A stretch of 64,000 nucleotides of DNA from NCBI GenBank assembly GCA_021325435.1, contig JAJPHE010000115.1, forward strand, positions 1 to 64,000, in the 5' to 3' direction. Both the position numbers and the translations under genes were made by a program. The number at the start of each line of letters is the position of its first letter. The first letter of the stretch is position 1. The notes under the pieces were generated by a model. That model saw only the letters and a program-made list of their open reading frames with translations, had not been told where the DNA came from and made no database searches. This document shows positions 3,008 through 51,514 of the stretch, in pieces. This stretch comes from Actinomycetota bacterium. Lineage in GTDB: Bacteria; Actinomycetota; Acidimicrobiia; Acidimicrobiales; JAJPHE01.

Positions 3008-5017
3008 TCAGACCAGCTCCCTCAGCTCACGCTTCAGGTCGTTGATTTCATCACGTAGGCGGGCGGCGTACTCGAAGCGCAGCTCGGCAGCGGCGTCGTG
3101 CATCTCCTCCTCGAGGGTCCGGATGAGCCGGTCGAGCTCCTCGCGGGGCATCTCGGCGAAGTCACTCTTGGCCGACCGGCGTGAGCGGCGCTCGCGGGTC
3201 GGGGTCGGGGCCCCCTCGGCCGGTCGGAGGTGGGCCAGGATGTCGGTGACCGCCTTGCGGATCGTCTGGGGGTCGATGCCGTGCTCGGCGTTGTAGGCCT
3301 GCTGGAGGGCCCGACGGCGCTGGGTCTCGGAGATGGCCCGCTTCATCGAGTCGGTGACGCTGTCGGCGTACATGATCACCTGGCCGTCGACGTTCCGGGC
3401 GGCCCGGCCGATGGTCTGGATCAGCGACGTCTCCGACCGCAGGAAGCCCTCCTTGTCGGCGTCGAGGATGGCCACCAGGGAGACCTCGGGCAGGTCGAGG
3501 CCCTCGCGCAGCAGGTTGATGCCGACCAGGACGTCGAACTCGCCGAGGCGCAGGTCGCGCAGGATCTCGATGCGCTCGATGGTGTCGATGTTGGAGTGCA
3601 GGTAGCGGACCCGCAGCCCCATCTCGAGCAGGTAGTCGGTCAGGTCCTCGGCCATCTTCTTGGTCAGGGTGGTGACCAGCACCCGGTCCCCCATGGCCAC
3701 CCGGGTGTTGATCTGCTCGATCAGGTCGTCGATCTGACCCTTGGTCGGCTTGACGATGACCTCGGGGTCGACCAGGCCGGTCGGGCGGACGATCTGCTCC
3801 ACCACCTGAGCGGACTGGGAGATCTCGTAGGCCGACGGGGTGGCCGACAGGAACACGCACTGGTTGACGTGCTCGTAGAACTCGTCGAAGCGCAGGGGCC
3901 GGTTGTCGACCGCCGATGGCAGCCGGAAGCCGTGCTCCACCAGGGTGTCCTTGCGTGACCGGTCGCCCTCGTACTGGCCGTGAAGCTGGGGAACCGTCAC
4001 GTGGCTCTCGTCGATGACGAGGAGGTAGTCCTTGGGGAAGAAGTCGAGCAGCGTGTAGGGGGGCTCACCCGGTGAGCGGCCGTCGATGTGGCGGCTGTAG
4101 TTCTCGATGCCGTTGCAGAACCCGACCTCGGTCATCATCTCGAGGTCGTACTGGGTGCGCATCCGCAGCCGCTGGGCCTCGAGGAGCTTGCCCTCCCTCT
4201 CGAAGAAGGCCAGGCGCTCCTGCAGCTCGGCCTCGATGCCCGAGATGGCCTTGCGCATCCGCTCCTCACCGGCCACGTAGTGGGTGGCCGGGTAGATCAC
4301 CAGTTCCTCGAGGTCACCCAGCTGCTCGCCGGTCAGCGGGTCGAACTGGCTGATCCGCTCGATGTCGTCGCCGAACAGCTCCACCCGTACGGCGAAGGGC
4401 TCGTAGGCGGGGTGCACCTCGATGGTGTCGCCCCGCACCCGGAACTTGCCCCGGACCAGGTTCATGTCGTTGCGCTCGTAGCTCATGTCCACGAGGCGCG
4501 AGAGGATCGCCCGCTGGTCGTGCTCGGTCCCCTGGCGGAGGAGCAGCATCCGGCTGCGGTACTCCTCGGGGGACCCCAAGCCGTAGATGCAGGACACCGA
4601 GGCGACCACGATCACGTCGCGCCGGGTCAGCAGGGCGGCGGTGGCCGAGTGGCGGAGCCGGTCCACCTCGTCGTTGATCGACGAGTCCTTCTCGATGTAG
4701 GTGTCGCTCGAGGGGATGTAGGCCTCGGGCTGGTAGTAGTCGTAGTAGGAGACGAAGTACTCGACCCGGTTGTGGGGGAACAGCTCGCGGAACTCGTTGG
4801 CCAGCTGGGCGGCCAGCGACTTGTTGGGGGCGATGACCAGGGTGGGCCGCTGGACCGCCTCGATGGTCCAGGCGATGGTGGCGCTCTTGCCCGACCCGGT
4901 GATGCCCAGCAGGGTCTGGAACCGGTCCCCCCGATTGACCCCCTCGGCCAGGGCGGAGATGGCCTTGGGCTGGTCGCCGGCCGGCTGAAACTCGCTGACG
5001 ACCTCGAACCGGGGCAT
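3008..5017 (-). CDS. uvrB: Excinuclease ABC subunit B
   Basis: UvrB is the helicase-like subunit that verifies damage and recruits UvrC. Visible features are Walker [11 protein letters not shown] near residue 36, the tyrosine-rich beta-hairpin [20 protein letters not shown], the DESHVTVPQ box, helicase motifs with QTIGRAARN, and a C-terminal UVR coiled-coil motif (about the last 40 residues). I start it at ATG 5017 (669 aa) rather than 10 codons upstream. [10 protein letters not shown] is the family N-terminus, and a TACCCT -10 box lies exactly 7 nt before this ATG, which predicts a leaderless mRNA. It is the first gene of the uvrB-uvrA operon. Confidence 0.98.
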
Positions 5018-45490: not shown

Positions 45491-45533
45491 GCTCGCGCTA
45501 CTGAATCCCCGCCGGCCATGGCCGGCGATGACC

Positions 45534-45554
45534 GTTACAACCTCTTCGTACCCT
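45534..45554 (+). promoter_or_regulatory. Leaderless promoter with GTTACAACC box
   Basis: GTTACAACC (45534-45542), 6 nt, TACCCT (45549-45554), 6 nt, GTG 45561. Box and spacing match the uvrB promoter (box to -10: 6 nt) and the rightward promoter at 5744. The longer flank CCGTTACAACCTCT is nearly identical to CCGTCACAACCTCT at 5742. Confidence 0.5.
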
Positions 45555-45560
45555 CGGCCC

Positions 45561-46322
45561 GTGACGTACTCGGCCGAGAAGGTGAGACTGGTCGGCGACC
45601 TGCTCGCTCAGGGTCTGTCCCACGCGGAGATCTCGCGACGCACCGGCGTAAGCCGTTGGGCCATCCGACAATGGGAGGAGTTCGGCCCGGAGCAGCTGGC
45701 TGGCCGCCGTCTCAAGTCCGGGCAAGGTGAACCACACAGCCGGACGGAATGCGAAGCCCGCTGCACGGTGCCCCAGGCTGAATATGCCTACCTTCTCGGG
45801 CTTTATCTGGGGGACGGCTGTTTGAGCGAGACGCCGAAGGGAGTATTCAAGCTTCGCATCGTCCTCGACATGAAGTACCCGCACATCATCGGCGAGTGCT
45901 ATCGAGCCATGGGCTCTGTGCTGCCGAACCGTGTCGGTCGTGTCCGCAGACCGGGATGCGTGGAGGTGTACTCATACTCGAAGCACTGGCCGTGCCTCTT
46001 CCCTCAACACGGTAGGGGCATGAAGCACCTCCGCCCCATCCTCCTTGAGGACTGGCAGCACAAGATCGCGATCCAGGAGCATCCCCAGCGGCTCCTTCGT
46101 GGCTTGATCCACTCGGACGGATGTCGTGTCGTCAATGAAGTCAACGGAGGCGCCTATCCCCGTTACATGTTCAGCAGCGCCTCACCTGACATACAGCTCA
46201 TCTTCATCGAGGCCTGCCACGAGCTCGGGATCGTCTGGCGGCGCTGTAACGCGAGGAACTTGTCAGTTGGCCGTCGAGATTCCGTAGCGCGATTGGACGA
46301 GTTCATCGGGCCTAAGCGATGA
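45561..46322 (+). CDS. LAGLIDADG homing-endonuclease-like protein with HTH
   Basis: A 253-residue protein. The N-terminus is a helix-turn-helix (SHAEISRRTGVSRWAIRQWEEFG). Two LAGLIDADG-type motifs follow: YLLGLYLGDGC (about residue 76) and LLRGLIHSDGC (about residue 176); the glycine-aspartate pairs are intact, so a single-chain two-motif nuclease is plausible. It is free-standing, not inside an intein or intron that I can see, and it ends 1 bp from the 3' end of tRNA-Leu. Codon use is clearly less GC-biased than the neighbours (many T- and A-ending codons), suggesting recent transfer. Start GTG 45561 by promoter spacing; ATG 45528 is also in frame. Confidence 0.8.
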   Translation: MTYSAEKVRLVGDLLAQGLSHAEISRRTGVSRWAIRQWEEFGPEQLAGRRLKSGQGEPHSRTECEARCTVPQAEYAYLLGLYLGDGCLSETPKGVFKLRIVLDMKYPHIIGECYRAMGSVLPNRVGRVRRPGCVEVYSYSKHWPCLFPQHGRGMKHLRPILLEDWQHKIAIQEHPQRLLRGLIHSDGCRVVNEVNGGAYPRYMFSSASPDIQLIFIEACHELGIVWRRCNARNLSVGRRDSVARLDEFIGPKR

Positions 46323-46637: not shown

Positions 46638-47846
46638 GTGCTGATCTTCACCTTTCCGGGGCAGGGTTCCCAGAAGCCGGGCATGGGCCGGCCGTGGGTC
46701 GAGCACCCCTCGTGGGAGCTGGTGAAGGACGTCTCCGAGGCCGCCGACCGTGACGTGGCCCGGCTGCTCCTCGAGGCGGACAAGGACGAGCTGACGGCGA
46801 CCCGCAACGCCCAGCTGGCGACCTTCACGCTCAGCCTGGTGGTGCTGGACGCCATCGAGCGGCTGGGCATCTCGCCGTCGGCGTGCGCCGGCCACTCCCT
46901 GGGCGAGTACTCGGCCCTGGTGGCCAGCGGCGCGGTGGGCTTCGACGACGGGGTCCGCCTGGTCGCCGAGCGGGGCGAGGCCATGCAGGCGGCGGCCGAG
47001 GAGAACCCGGGGACGATGGCGGCCGTGCTGGGTCTCGACGACGACGACGTCGAGTCGGCTTGCCAGCGGGCGGAGAGCGAAGCGTGGGTGGCCAACTACA
47101 ACGCCCCCGGCCAGGTGGTCATCGCCGGCTCGAAGGACGGGGTGGCCGCCGCCGCCGAGGTGGCCAAGGGCATGGGGGCCCGCAAGGTAATGCCGCTGCC
47201 CGTGGGTGGCGCCTTCCACACCCCGCTGATGGCGCCGGCCCGGGCCCACCTGCGCAAGGCGCTGAGCGAGGCCACCTTCCACGAGCCCGAGGTGCCGGTG
47301 ACCGCCAACGTCGACGCCCGGGTCCACGGTGAGGCGTCCGAGTGGCCGGGTCTCCTGTCGGCCCAGCTGTGCAGTCCGGTCCGCTGGCGCCAGACCGTCG
47401 CCTCCCTGGTCGGCGAGGCACCCGGGGTGCCGGCGCTGGTGGAGGTCGGGCCGGGCGGGGTGCTGACCGGGCTGACCCGGCGGATCGCGGCCGAGGCCAA
47501 GGCCATCTCCGTCTCCGCTCCCGAGAACCTCAACAGCCTGGTGGAGGCCCTGGCCACCGAAGGGCCGCTGCTCTCGTACATCTCGAGCCACGAGGGCGAG
47601 CACCTCTACGTCTCGGAGCGTCTGGTGATCAGCCCGGCGGCCGGCCTGTTCCACCTGAGCGACGAGGGCTCGCCGGCCGACGGTGGCGAGGTGGCGGTGG
47701 GGGACCTCATCGGGCTCGTGGGCGACGTCGAGGTCCGCACACCCTTCGCCGGAAACCTCATGGGCATCCTGGCCCTGCCGGGTGAGCGGGTGACCGAGGG
47801 CCAGCCCATCGCCTGGCTGCGCAACGCCGGCGAGAACGCCGGCTGA
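46638..47846 (+). CDS. fabD: Malonyl-CoA:ACP transacylase fused to biotinyl/lipoyl-like domain
   Basis: FabD moves malonyl from CoA to ACP to supply elongation units. Residues 1-310 are the full enzyme: FTFPGQGSQKPGMG, GHSLGEYSAL with the nucleophile Ser87, and GGAFHTPLMAPA with the catalytic His near 194. Residues about 326-402 are extra (FabD is normally about 310 aa) and resemble a biotinyl/lipoyl domain: VISPAAGLF, EVAVGDLIGLVGD, VRTPFAGNLMGIL, PGERVTEGQPIAWL. The hairpin that would carry the modified lysine is shortened and has no lysine. GTG 46638 has GGAGG 4 nt upstream. First enzyme gene of the FAS II cluster. Confidence 0.94.
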   Translation: MLIFTFPGQGSQKPGMGRPWVEHPSWELVKDVSEAADRDVARLLLEADKDELTATRNAQLATFTLSLVVLDAIERLGISPSACAGHSLGEYSALVASGAVGFDDGVRLVAERGEAMQAAAEENPGTMAAVLGLDDDDVESACQRAESEAWVANYNAPGQVVIAGSKDGVAAAAEVAKGMGARKVMPLPVGGAFHTPLMAPARAHLRKALSEATFHEPEVPVTANVDARVHGEASEWPGLLSAQLCSPVRWRQTVASLVGEAPGVPALVEVGPGGVLTGLTRRIAAEAKAISVSAPENLNSLVEALATEGPLLSYISSHEGEHLYVSERLVISPAAGLFHLSDEGSPADGGEVAVGDLIGLVGDVEVRTPFAGNLMGILALPGERVTEGQPIAWLRNAGENAG

Positions 47847-47870: not shown

Positions 47871-48797
47871 ATGGGCGGCATCCGGATCGTGGGGTGGGGC
47901 ACCGCCCTTCCCGACAAGGTCATCACCAACGCCGACCTCGAGGCCCGTCTGGACACCACTGACGAGTGGATCACCGAGCGCAGCGGCATCCGCGAGCGGC
48001 GCGTCGGTGGGACCACGACCGAGCTGGCCGTCGGGGCCGGCCGGGCCGCCCTGGCCAAGGCCGGCCTCGAGCCCACCAACGTCGACCTGCTGGTGCTGGC
48101 CACCACCACCCCGGACCAGGCGGTGCCGGCGACCTCGGCCGCCGTGTCCCACGAGCTCGGGCTGCACTGCGGCGGCTTCGACCTGAACGCCGCCTGCGCC
48201 GGCTTCGTGTACTCGTTGGTGGCGGCTTCGGGCATGGCCACCGGCCACATCCGCAACGTCCTTCTCATCGGCTCCGAGACCCTGTCGCGGGTCACCGACT
48301 GGGAGGACCGCAGCACGGCCGTGCTCTTTGCCGACGGCGCCGGCGCCGTGGTCCTCCAGGCGGTGGAGGGGCCCGGTGACCTCCTCGGGTGGGATCTCGG
48401 CCTCGACGGGTCGCTGCGCCCGATCCTCTACGCCGACCTCGGCGGATTCATCGTCATGGAGGGCCGCGAGGTGTTCCGTCGGGCCGTGCGGGCCACCGTC
48501 GAGTCCGCCACTCAAGCGCTGCGGCGCTCCGGCGTCAGTGCCGACGAGATCGCGCTGTTCGTGCCCCACCAGGCCAACATCCGCATCATCGACGCCGCCG
48601 GTCAGCGCCTCGGCATCCCCCGTGAGCGCACGGCCGTGGTGCTCGACCGCACCGGCAACACCTCGTCGGCGTCGATCCCCCTGGCCCTGGCCGACGCCGC
48701 TGACGCCGGCCGCCTCTCCCCCGGCGACCTCGTCCTGCTGTCCGGCTTCGGCGCCGGCATGACCTGGGCCAGCGCCGTGGTGCGCTGGAGCGCATGA
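47871..48797 (+). CDS. fabH: Beta-ketoacyl-ACP synthase III
   Basis: FabH condenses acyl-CoA with malonyl-ACP to start fatty-acid synthesis. 308 residues, slightly short. The catalytic triad is complete: Cys109 in DLNAACAGFVYSL, His near 234 in PHQANIRI, Asn near 264 in GNTSSAS. TTTPDQAVPATSAAVSHELG and the dimer segment are typical. GGAAGG lies 9 nt before ATG 47871. Its stop overlaps the fabG ATG (ATGA). Confidence 0.97.
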   Translation: MGGIRIVGWGTALPDKVITNADLEARLDTTDEWITERSGIRERRVGGTTTELAVGAGRAALAKAGLEPTNVDLLVLATTTPDQAVPATSAAVSHELGLHCGGFDLNAACAGFVYSLVAASGMATGHIRNVLLIGSETLSRVTDWEDRSTAVLFADGAGAVVLQAVEGPGDLLGWDLGLDGSLRPILYADLGGFIVMEGREVFRRAVRATVESATQALRRSGVSADEIALFVPHQANIRIIDAAGQRLGIPRERTAVVLDRTGNTSSASIPLALADAADAGRLSPGDLVLLSGFGAGMTWASAVVRWSA

Positions 48798-49537
48798 GCC
48801 CGAGCGACGCCCCGTGGACCGACCGGGTGGTCATGGTCACCGGAGGCTCCCGCGGCATCGGGCGGGCCTGCGCCGAGCGGTTCGTGGCCGACGGCGACCG
48901 GGTCGTTGCCACCTCGCGCAGTGAGCCGCAGACGGCCGAGGAGGCGGACGGGCGGCTCTGGAACCTGGCCTGCGACGTGCGCTCGGCCGAGCAGGTGGAG
49001 TCGGCGTTCAAGGAGGTCGAGGAGCACTGGGGCCCGGTGGAGGTGCTGGTGGCCAACGCCGGCGTCACCCGCGACCAGCTGTTGCTGCGCATGGGCGAGG
49101 AGGCCTGGGAGGAGGTCCTCGACACCAATCTGACCGGCACCTACCGGGTGGTGAAGCGGGCCATTGGGCCCATGGTGCGGGCCCGGCGAGGCCGGGTGAT
49201 CGTGATCTCCTCGATCGTGGGCTTGGCGGGCCAGGCCGGTCAGACCAACTACGCCGCGGCCAAGGCCGGCCTGGTCGGCTTCGCCCGCTCCCTGGCCCGC
49301 GAGCTGGCCAGCCGGCAGATCCTGGTCAACGTGGTCGCACCGGGGGCGGTGCAGACCGACATGCTGGCCGCCCTGGGCGAGGACAACGTGGCCGCCCTGG
49401 TGGGACAGGTGCCGCTCGGGCGGGTCGCATCTCCCGCCGAGGTGGCGTCCGCCGTAGCCTTCCTGGCGTCGCCGGAGGCGTCCTACATCACCGGCGCCGT
49501 TCTGCCGGTGGACGGTGGGCTCGCCATGGGGCACTGA
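48794..49537 (+). CDS. fabG: 3-oxoacyl-ACP reductase
   Basis: A 247-residue short-chain dehydrogenase. The cofactor motif is TGGSRGIGRACAERF; NAGVTRD and the catalytic Ser (ISSIVGLAG) and YAAAKAG (Tyr/Lys) are all in place, and the C-terminus ends GGLAMGH, a FabG-type end. Reduces beta-ketoacyl-ACP with NADPH. Translationally coupled to fabH. Confidence 0.96.
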   Translation: MSPSDAPWTDRVVMVTGGSRGIGRACAERFVADGDRVVATSRSEPQTAEEADGRLWNLACDVRSAEQVESAFKEVEEHWGPVEVLVANAGVTRDQLLLRMGEEAWEEVLDTNLTGTYRVVKRAIGPMVRARRGRVIVISSIVGLAGQAGQTNYAAAKAGLVGFARSLARELASRQILVNVVAPGAVQTDMLAALGEDNVAALVGQVPLGRVASPAEVASAVAFLASPEASYITGAVLPVDGGLAMGH

Positions 49538-49603: not shown

Positions 49604-49846
49604 GTGGACCGCGATGCGGCCTTCGAGAAGTTCAAGTCCGCCGCCGTGGAGGTGCTGCAGGTGCAGCCCGACCAGGTAGTGCCCGACGCCAAGTTCGGTG
49701 ACGACCTTGACGCCGACAGCCTTGACCTGGTCGAGCTGGTGATGGCGCTCGAGGAGCAGTTCGACATCAGCGTCGACGAGTCGGAGCTCGAGGGGATCCA
49801 GACCGTCGGCCAGGCCTTCGACCTCATAATCTCGAAGGTGGAATGA
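49604..49846 (+). CDS. acpP: Acyl carrier protein
   Basis: An 80-residue acidic helical protein. Ser39 in DADSLDLVELVMALEEQF is the phosphopantetheine site. Carries the growing chain between the FAS II enzymes. GTG 49604 has GAGAGGAG about 5 nt upstream. Its stop overlaps the fabF ATG (ATGA), giving coupled translation. Confidence 0.98.
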   Translation: MDRDAAFEKFKSAAVEVLQVQPDQVVPDAKFGDDLDADSLDLVELVMALEEQFDISVDESELEGIQTVGQAFDLIISKVE

Positions 49847-51051
49847 AGACCTACCTGGACCCTAAGGGCGGCGGCCCCGACGGCCGCAGGGTCGCCATCA
49901 CCGGCATCGGTGTGGTGGCCAGCTGCGGCATCGGCAAGGACGCCTACTGGGAGGGTCTGTGCCGGCCGGGGCCGGTCGGCACCCGCCGGGTGGAGGGGTT
50001 CGACCCGACTCAGTGGTTCGGCCCCAAGGAGGTGCGTCGGGTCGACCGCTTCGCCCAGTTCGCCGTGGCGGCGGCGGACATGGCCTTCGAGGACGCCGGC
50101 TCGCCGGAGTACGACCCCGACCGGGCGGGCGTCCTGATCGGAACCGGCGTCGGGGGGCTGCAGACGCTCGAGGAGCAGATCCTCGTGCACCACGAGAAGG
50201 GCGCCCGGCGGGTGTCGCCGTTCCTCGTGCCGATGATGATGGCCAACGCCGGGGCGGCGACGGTGTCGATGCGCCGAGGATGGCGGGGCCCGTGCGAGAC
50301 GACCGTCACCGCCTGCGCCGCCGGCACCCACGCCATCGGCAACGCCGCCCGCCTGGTGGCAACCGGGCGGTGCGACGTCATGGTCGCCGGCGGCAGCGAG
50401 GCCGCCATCACCGACGTCTCCACGGCCGGGTTCGGCAACATGACGGCCCTGTCCAACGAGGGGATCTCGCGGCCGTTCGACGCCCGCCGCGACGGGTTCG
50501 TGATGGCCGAGGGCGCGGCGTGCCTCATCCTCGAGGAGCTCGAGGCGGCCCGGGCCCGGGGCGCCCACATCTACGGAGAGGTCGTCGGGTCGGCCAGCAC
50601 CGCCGACGCCCACCACATCACCGCCCCCGCACCCGGGGGGGCGGGCGCGGCCACCTGCATGGAGTTGGCCCTCGCCGACGCCGGCGTGTCGCCGTCCGAC
50701 GTCCGCCACATCAACGCCCACGGCACCTCCACCCCCTTGAACGACGCGGCGGAGGCCGAGGCGATCATCAAGCTGTTCGGCACCCCGGGGCCGCCGGTCA
50801 CCTCCACCAAGGGAGTCACCGGCCACGCCCTCGGAGCGGCCGGGGCCCTCGAGGCGGTGGCCCTGACCCTCACCATCGAGCGGGGGCTGATCCCGCCCAC
50901 GTCCGGCTACGAGGAACCCGACCCCGCCATTCCGCTGGACGTGGTGGCGGGCGCCCCCCGGGCCTGGGAGCCGGGCCCGGCCCTGTCGAACTCCTTCGGG
51001 TTCGGCGGCCACAACGGCTGCCTGGTCCTGGTGCCGCCCTCGGACGGCTGA
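49843..51051 (+). CDS. fabF: Beta-ketoacyl-ACP synthase II
   Basis: A 402-residue elongating condensing enzyme. Cys near 156 in VTACAAGTHAIGNA, His near 294 in NAHGTSTPLNDAAE and His near 332 in TGHALGAAGALE make the Cys-His-His triad. The N-terminal 15 residues (KTYLDPKGGGPDGR) extend beyond the usual VAITGIGVV start. Ends with FGFGGHNGCLVL. Last plus-strand gene of the cluster; the stop overlaps a palindrome (51047-51062). Confidence 0.97.
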   Translation: MKTYLDPKGGGPDGRRVAITGIGVVASCGIGKDAYWEGLCRPGPVGTRRVEGFDPTQWFGPKEVRRVDRFAQFAVAAADMAFEDAGSPEYDPDRAGVLIGTGVGGLQTLEEQILVHHEKGARRVSPFLVPMMMANAGAATVSMRRGWRGPCETTVTACAAGTHAIGNAARLVATGRCDVMVAGGSEAAITDVSTAGFGNMTALSNEGISRPFDARRDGFVMAEGAACLILEELEAARARGAHIYGEVVGSASTADAHHITAPAPGGAGAATCMELALADAGVSPSDVRHINAHGTSTPLNDAAEAEAIIKLFGTPGPPVTSTKGVTGHALGAAGALEAVALTLTIERGLIPPTSGYEEPDPAIPLDVVAGAPRAWEPGPALSNSFGFGGHNGCLVLVPPSDG

Positions 51052-51085: not shown

Positions 51086-51514
51086 CTAGGCGTCGGCGAT
51101 GACGAACAGCAGCTCGGCATCGCAGGCGGTCTGGCCCCCCACCGAGGCCCGGCCCCTCCCCTTGCCGGCCCGGGCCGACAGGCGCCCCATCTCCACCTCC
51201 AGGTCGAGCACGTCCCCGGGGACGACCTGGCGGCGGAACCGGGCGGAGTCGATGCCGCCGAACAGGGGCAGCTTGCCGGCGTAACGGGGGTCGAGGAGAA
51301 CGGCGACCGCCCCCAGCTGGGCGATGGACTCGACCATCAACACCCCCGGCAGGGTCGGCCGCCCCGGGAAGTGCCCGGCGAGGAAGTCCTCGTCCCCCGT
51401 GATCCTCCACCGCCCCTTGGCAGACACACCGGGGTCGACCTCGGTCACCTCGTCCAGCAGCAGGAACGGGGGTCGGTGGGGCAGGACGTGCTGGGGCCGG
51501 GGGATGTCCGCCAT
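51086..51514 (-). CDS. fabZ: 3-hydroxyacyl-ACP dehydratase FabZ-like
   Basis: A 142-residue hot-dog-fold dehydratase. LPHRPPFLLLDEV opens it; the active site is GHFPGRPTLPGVLMVESIAQ with His48 and Glu62. It supplies the dehydration step missing from the plus-strand fab genes. It is on the opposite strand, after bcp, with which it overlaps by one base (TGATG), so the two are co-translated. Confidence 0.94.
   Translation of the reverse strand: MADIPRPQHVLPHRPPFLLLDEVTEVDPGVSAKGRWRITGDEDFLAGHFPGRPTLPGVLMVESIAQLGAVAVLLDPRYAGKLPLFGGIDSARFRRQVVPGDVLDLEVEMGRLSARAGKGRGRASVGGQTACDAELLFVIADA

Follow-up and report, generated by a model that had tools for sequence, protein, structure and literature searches.

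The fabD gene of the 64,000-nucleotide stretch of DNA analysed here (the window) codes for a malonyltransferase that carries, at its C-terminus, a domain with the predicted fold of a biotin carrier and without the lysine that biotin would require. Analogous to plant BADC, such a non-catalytic pseudo-BCCP may dock acetyl-CoA carboxylase (ACC) to the FAS II enzymes FabD and FabH, or help to assemble them, a role which we propose tentatively and to which we give slightly less than an even chance.

The FabD fusion and its operon

The features of the fusion gene and of the genes around it are listed in Table 1. The N-terminal part of the product is identified as FabD by TIGR00128 (280.7 bits over residues 3-286, curated cut-off 260.9). 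Since Q9, S87, R112 and H194, representing the catalytic Ser-His pair together with Gln and Arg, are invariant in 17 aligned relatives, the enzyme looks active. Matches of the window protein to the PDZ and M23 families of Pfam were partial and sub-threshold, and were dismissed. No carboxylase gene adjoins the fab operon in the window, the five carboxyltransferase genes of this genome being located on other contigs. Just upstream of fabD (45528-46322) lies a stand-alone ORF of 264 aa resembling an HTH protein and a homing endonuclease.

Table 1. Coordinates of the fabD fusion gene, its parts and the neighbouring genes in the window
Feature	Position	Strand	Remarks
fabD fusion gene, ACP S-malonyltransferase with C-terminal lysine-less BCCP-like domain	46638..47846	+	402 aa, GTG start, stop included
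AT (acyltransferase) domain, residues 2-308	46641..47561	+	
Linker, flexible, residues 309-324	47562..47609	+	pLDDT <50, poorly conserved
Lysine-less AccB-type biotinyl (barrel-sandwich) domain, residues 325-397	47610..47828	+	
GDVEVRTPF, shortened hairpin at the position of BCCP (E)AMKM, no Lys	47721..47747	+	
fabH (beta-ketoacyl-ACP synthase III), constant downstream neighbour of the domain	47871..48797	+	sequence and tblastn to relatives
fabG (3-ketoacyl-ACP reductase)	48794..49537	+	sequence resemblance
acpP (acyl carrier protein)	49604..49846	+	sequence resemblance
fabF (beta-ketoacyl-ACP synthase II)	49843..51051	+	sequence resemblance
fabZ-like dehydratase, convergent with the operon	51086..51514	-	also near the operon in L231, L233-L235

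Sequence and predicted fold of the tail domain

The FabD tail reads SPAAGLF ... VAVGDLIGLVGDVEVRTPFAGNLMGILALPGERVTEGQPIAWL at its C-terminal end, exactly the string of motifs on which an earlier reading of the sequence alone had based its proposal of a fused biotinyl/lipoyl-like domain. The same reading had placed this domain at 47613-47843, which is roughly right; the actual span begins at 47592 or 47610 and ends at 47828 (residues ~319 or 325 to 397). It had also held that the hairpin with the modified lysine is replaced by GDVEVRTPF. Indeed, this hairpin is 4 residues shorter than that of biotinyl domains, and there is no lysine anywhere in residues 309-402 of the window FabD. Judging from these residues, the domain cannot carry biotin or lipoate. 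Attachment to a different lysine is impossible in the lysine-free tail of the window protein, and a lipoyl domain was ruled out for the same lack of lysine and because AccB-type domains match better.

Sequence comparison of the single protein gives marginal scores only. The tail reaches an E-value of 0.047 and 14.0 bits with Pfam Biotin_lipoyl (PF00364), which is below the gathering cut-off of 22.1, and E-values of 0.2-0.8 with the BCCPs of the PDB. Hence, the HMM search suggested in the sequence-only reading fell short for the window tail itself and succeeded for relatives bearing the same tail (L070 and L073), which exceed the Pfam cut-off with 23.1 and 25.2 bits. An AlphaFold2 model of the tail, built from an alignment of 15 tails, was obtained with a pLDDT of 85 and a pTM of 0.72, and the biotinyl sandwich anticipated in that reading was predicted. 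The top Foldseek matches to the model are biotinyl domains (5gua, E 5.9e-5; 1bdo, E 9.6e-5), and VIA-align 2 ranked E. coli AccB (4hr7_G) first with Z 11.9 and an rmsd of 1.3 Å over 69 aligned residues, the value for 1bdo being Z 11.6. The biotinyl barrel-sandwich fold is thus confirmed at the level of the predicted structure; it is the combination of relatives passing the Pfam cut-off, the profile alignment with AccB described below and the predicted fold that settles the matter. The central claim made from the sequence, namely a FabD fused to a biotinyl-like domain devoid of the target lysine, is upheld.

Conservation of the domain

The mean pairwise identity amounts to 64% in the AT domain, 58% in the core of the tail domain and 32% in the linker. 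Residues E321, E327, R328, P333, G336, G355, G359, F370, G372, G382-V385, Q389, P390 and W393 are invariant in the aligned set, the charged and aromatic ones within the domain including E327, R328, F370, E383, R384 and W393. In four of the five close pairs compared, the dN/dS of the domain was 0.06-0.14, similar to that of the AT part, while the divergence of the fifth pair was too small to be informative. The domain is therefore under purifying selection. A diverged subfamily was noticed in family f29 (L068, L070, L072), the fused tails of which lack the GER and W motifs and are nearer to the Pfam biotinyl profile.

Distribution and linkage to fabH

As to the distribution of the fusion, another check suggested along with the original claim, 396 genomes of Actinomycetota were searched with a profile and the context of the matches was read; genes of the relatives were named by their resemblance in tblastn searches with the window proteins and two carboxylase genes. 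The domain was found at more than 100 related loci, and most of the sampled families of the order to which the window belongs carry the tail. Such a spread, along with a core identity near that of the AT domain, excludes chance. A frameshift or assembly artefact was ruled out as well, since dozens of independent genomes have the fused frame intact. None of the aligned domains of the family has the biotinyl lysine motif, and 67 of 102 are free of lysine altogether.

In other families of the class, FabD ends near residue 300 and the domain is encoded by its own small ORF before fabH. Many further families carry it as well, mostly as a small protein (~75-115 residues) whose gene lies between those for FabD and FabH. 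The end of the domain lies from -1 to ~140 bp upstream of the fabH match at nearly all loci, with few exceptions. Because the domain also exists as a free-standing gene tied to fabH, the fusion to FabD emphasised in the sequence-only reading is one of its forms only, and a partnership with FabH is just as plausible. On the FabH tree, fusion to FabD accounts for three changes, at least two of which are forced by well-supported branches, and it appears to have arisen about three times.

Meanwhile, many relatives possess fabD-fabH without the domain, which is therefore dispensable. Its presence or absence changes 15 times on the FabH tree, and these changes may be mostly losses; the number of "none" states is possibly slightly overcounted, as at least one such locus (L187) looks like a frameshifted copy. 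There, between fabD (ending at ~1759) and fabH (2001), the stretch ILAPMRGRRAGG resembles, out of frame, the domain at L123, its sister locus, and represents either a copy in decay or an error in the sequence. Another copy in G321 lies near the 3' end of L194 3935-5497, between DegT-like aminotransferase and sulfotransferase-like genes, remote from fab and acc genes. In G195, a second, tail-less FabD paralogue (L081) accompanies the main FabD, which bears the domain. In seven genomes of family f9 of the same order (G089, G097, G179, G192, G231, G260, G293), the search for FabD found nothing at E 1e-20, and this family may rely on another fatty-acid synthase.

The many lineages without the domain, as well as the possible frameshifted remnant at L187, would suit a stabilising or vestigial tail, that is, a partnerless remnant of accB before fabH, retained for the sake of translating the operon or folding FabD. 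However, charged, aromatic and turn residues are conserved across distant families, selection on the domain resembles that on the AT domain, and the intact domain has been independently fused and relocated. This explanation is thus given only a slim chance.

Ancestry of the domain

Aligned by hhalign, the family profile matches AccB-type BCCPs from end to end (probability 99.2, E 9.1e-20, 84 columns), compared with E-values of 1.9e-13 for PCC-type biotinyl domains and 3.8e-13 for the YqeB domain. Likewise, the window tail scores 22.0 bits with the AccB profile versus 8.9 bits with the PCC-type one. These profiles suggest that the domain descends from AccB. Among the NCBIfam models, the best match of the tail is YqeB (TIGR03309; E 1.1e-5, 25.0 bits), which covers the barrel-sandwich part only and does not reach the cut-off of 220 bits; YqeB was rejected as the parent since its profile matches more poorly than that of AccB. 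YqeB-like proteins observed at L126, L132 and L133 contain a barrel-sandwich-like stretch with an ER-V-SPAAGVF-like start and no biotinyl motif.

In the genome of the window, no AccB-type biotinyl fold was found apart from the FabD tail. The lysine-bearing carriers found (L002, L003, L004) are all of PCC type, most of them being fused to BC; with the assembly at 96% completeness, an AccB could have been missed. It is plausible that, as PCC-type carboxylases with fused BC-BCCP took over, the lysine disappeared from the AccB of a fab-acc operon, while the body of this carrier was kept.

Gene links to the carboxylase and the proposed role

In bacteria, acetyl-CoA carboxylase catalyses the committed step, and the FAS II enzymes to which this step is coupled are soluble and dissociated. 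The docking of this carboxylase to FAS II, put forward together with the fusion, is treated here as a hypothesis, which the gene context, with its AccB-like domain and accD in the operons, favours. In eight families (f8, f10, f33, f65, f80, f86, f87, f94) the operon, in the order domain-fabH-(fabG)-acpP-fabF, extends to a carboxyltransferase gene of accD type. In roughly every second domain-bearing family examined, no such gene is present in the stretch read, for which contig ends may account; it is also found 3' of domain-less fabD-fabH operons (f90). By our count, accD occurs in ~8 of 16 domain-bearing and in 1 of 5 domain-less families, an enrichment that is suggestive only.

In two genomes the domain adjoins accD. 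In G552 (L191) the domain ORF ends at 3013 and an AccD-like ORF starts at 3017, there is no fabH nearby, and fabD resides without the domain in a separate cluster ~380 kb away. In G321, accD and a second fabG-like gene (fabG2) flank the domain. Both cases speak against the strongest rival explanation, which owes this position to fabH being the most constant neighbour: the domain would be a FabD-FabH (or ACP) coupling module that binds FabH and keeps FabD near, the carboxylase being uninvolved. The domain gene is situated directly upstream of fabH nearly everywhere, even where there is no upstream fabD (L125, L127, L169, L190), and the roughly three fusions to FabD on the FabH tree agree with such coupling too. 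Nevertheless, in G552 and G321 the domain is away from fabH, the AccB-like profile indicates surfaces for a carboxylase, and many FabD-FabH pairs function without any such domain, so that this explanation is considered unlikely.

In the operon of G371, accA (CT alpha) and fabD flank an AccB-like ORF devoid of the lysine; next come accC, a lysine-bearing BCCP, fabH, fabG, acpP and fabF. In this genome (L257, 678-1475 and 3794-4276; also L263) the BCCP with the lysine (EALKHLN) stands directly before fabH. The layout may be an ancestral acc-fab arrangement or a bacterial BADC-like pair. An AccB-like protein of 119 aa without the biotinyl lysine was also seen in G397 (L250, 7171-7527), where it adjoins a DRE-TIM carboxyltransferase-like gene ~3 kb from an accB-accC pair; fabH of this genome lacks the domain.

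A lysine-less AccB paralogue beside an active-looking ACC, as in G371, could also be read as a regulator. According to this explanation, the domain competes with the real BCCP for the active sites of BC and CT, and free FabD-domain throttles the supply of malonyl-CoA. A BCCP fold without lysine is what such a competitor would have, and inhibition was once proposed for plant BADC (PMC11926652). Yet the fused forms have a shortened version of the hairpin that reaches into the active sites, the carriers of the window's genome are of PCC type and mostly fused to BC, leaving less scope for subunit exchange, and fusion to FabD fits tethering better than inhibition. Regulation is accordingly judged improbable.

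With the biotinyl lysine gone, the domain is, on the likeliest reading, a docking piece between the maker of malonyl-CoA and its users. This docking role is favoured by the AccB-like character of the domain, by accD in the operons of several families and by the two genomes in which the domain lies beside accD. In the proposed mechanism, the domain would be an AccB-derived, biotin-free carrier that binds the carboxylase through its BC or CT subunit. Either fused to FabD or made from a gene beside fabH/fabD, it would keep the carboxylase next to FabD and FabH, and malonyl-CoA could be handed over for malonyl-ACP formation and the first condensation, with a putative benefit for channelling or assembly. 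A bolder version, which we regard as somewhat unlikely, is that widespread and undescribed pseudo-BCCPs of Actinomycetota join ACC to FabD/FabH as a channelling complex, having arisen when PCC-type carriers replaced AccB and the old carrier was kept as a dock.

The lysine-less BCCP-like family seems to be undescribed. No FabD-BCCP-like fusion was found in the open-access literature, where plant BADC was found, and the scanned members gave no NCBIfam model above cut-off and only marginal Pfam matches. A conserved lysine-less carrier domain at FabD, or beside fabH or accD, offers a concrete and testable candidate for the link between ACC and FAS II, and numerous small genes that actinobacteria carry between fabD and fabH would gain a name and a hypothesis.

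Comparison with known systems

The window protein agrees with FabD (TIGR00128) throughout its N-terminal 308 residues, with the active-site residues intact; ordinary FabD, however, stops at the equivalent of ~308, and the tail is extra. The biotinyl domain of E. coli AccB shares with the tail the fold (Z 11.9, 1.3 Å, 69 residues), a full-length profile match, an inserted segment after the second strand and a neighbourhood of fatty-acid and ACC genes. In contrast to AccB, domains of the window's family lack the Lys/AMKM, have a hairpin shorter by 4 residues in the fused forms, and are either fused to FabD or present as a lone small protein, mostly without the N-terminal region of AccB. YqeB (TIGR03309) has in common the lysine-free hairpin region and the ER-V-SPAAGVF start, but its barrel-sandwich is internal to an unrelated selenium-dependent molybdenum enzyme maturation protein and gives the weaker profile match.

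A functional parallel is offered by plant BADC, a BCCP-like protein without the AMKL motif, which acts as a "glue" helping the BC-BCCP complex to assemble; the older inhibitory model is reported in the same paper (PMC11926652). The BCCP-like fold, the missing biotinylation motif and the tie to fatty-acid synthesis are common to both. BADC proteins bind BCCP and BC as separate subunits of the heteromeric ACC of plastids, whereas the bacterial domain is either a covalent part of FabD or the product of a gene beside fabH, and the lysine-bearing carriers found in the window's genome are of PCC type. Hence, the pseudo-BCCP is most likely analogous to plant BADC rather than a member of that family, and a docking role would provide a bacterial parallel to it.
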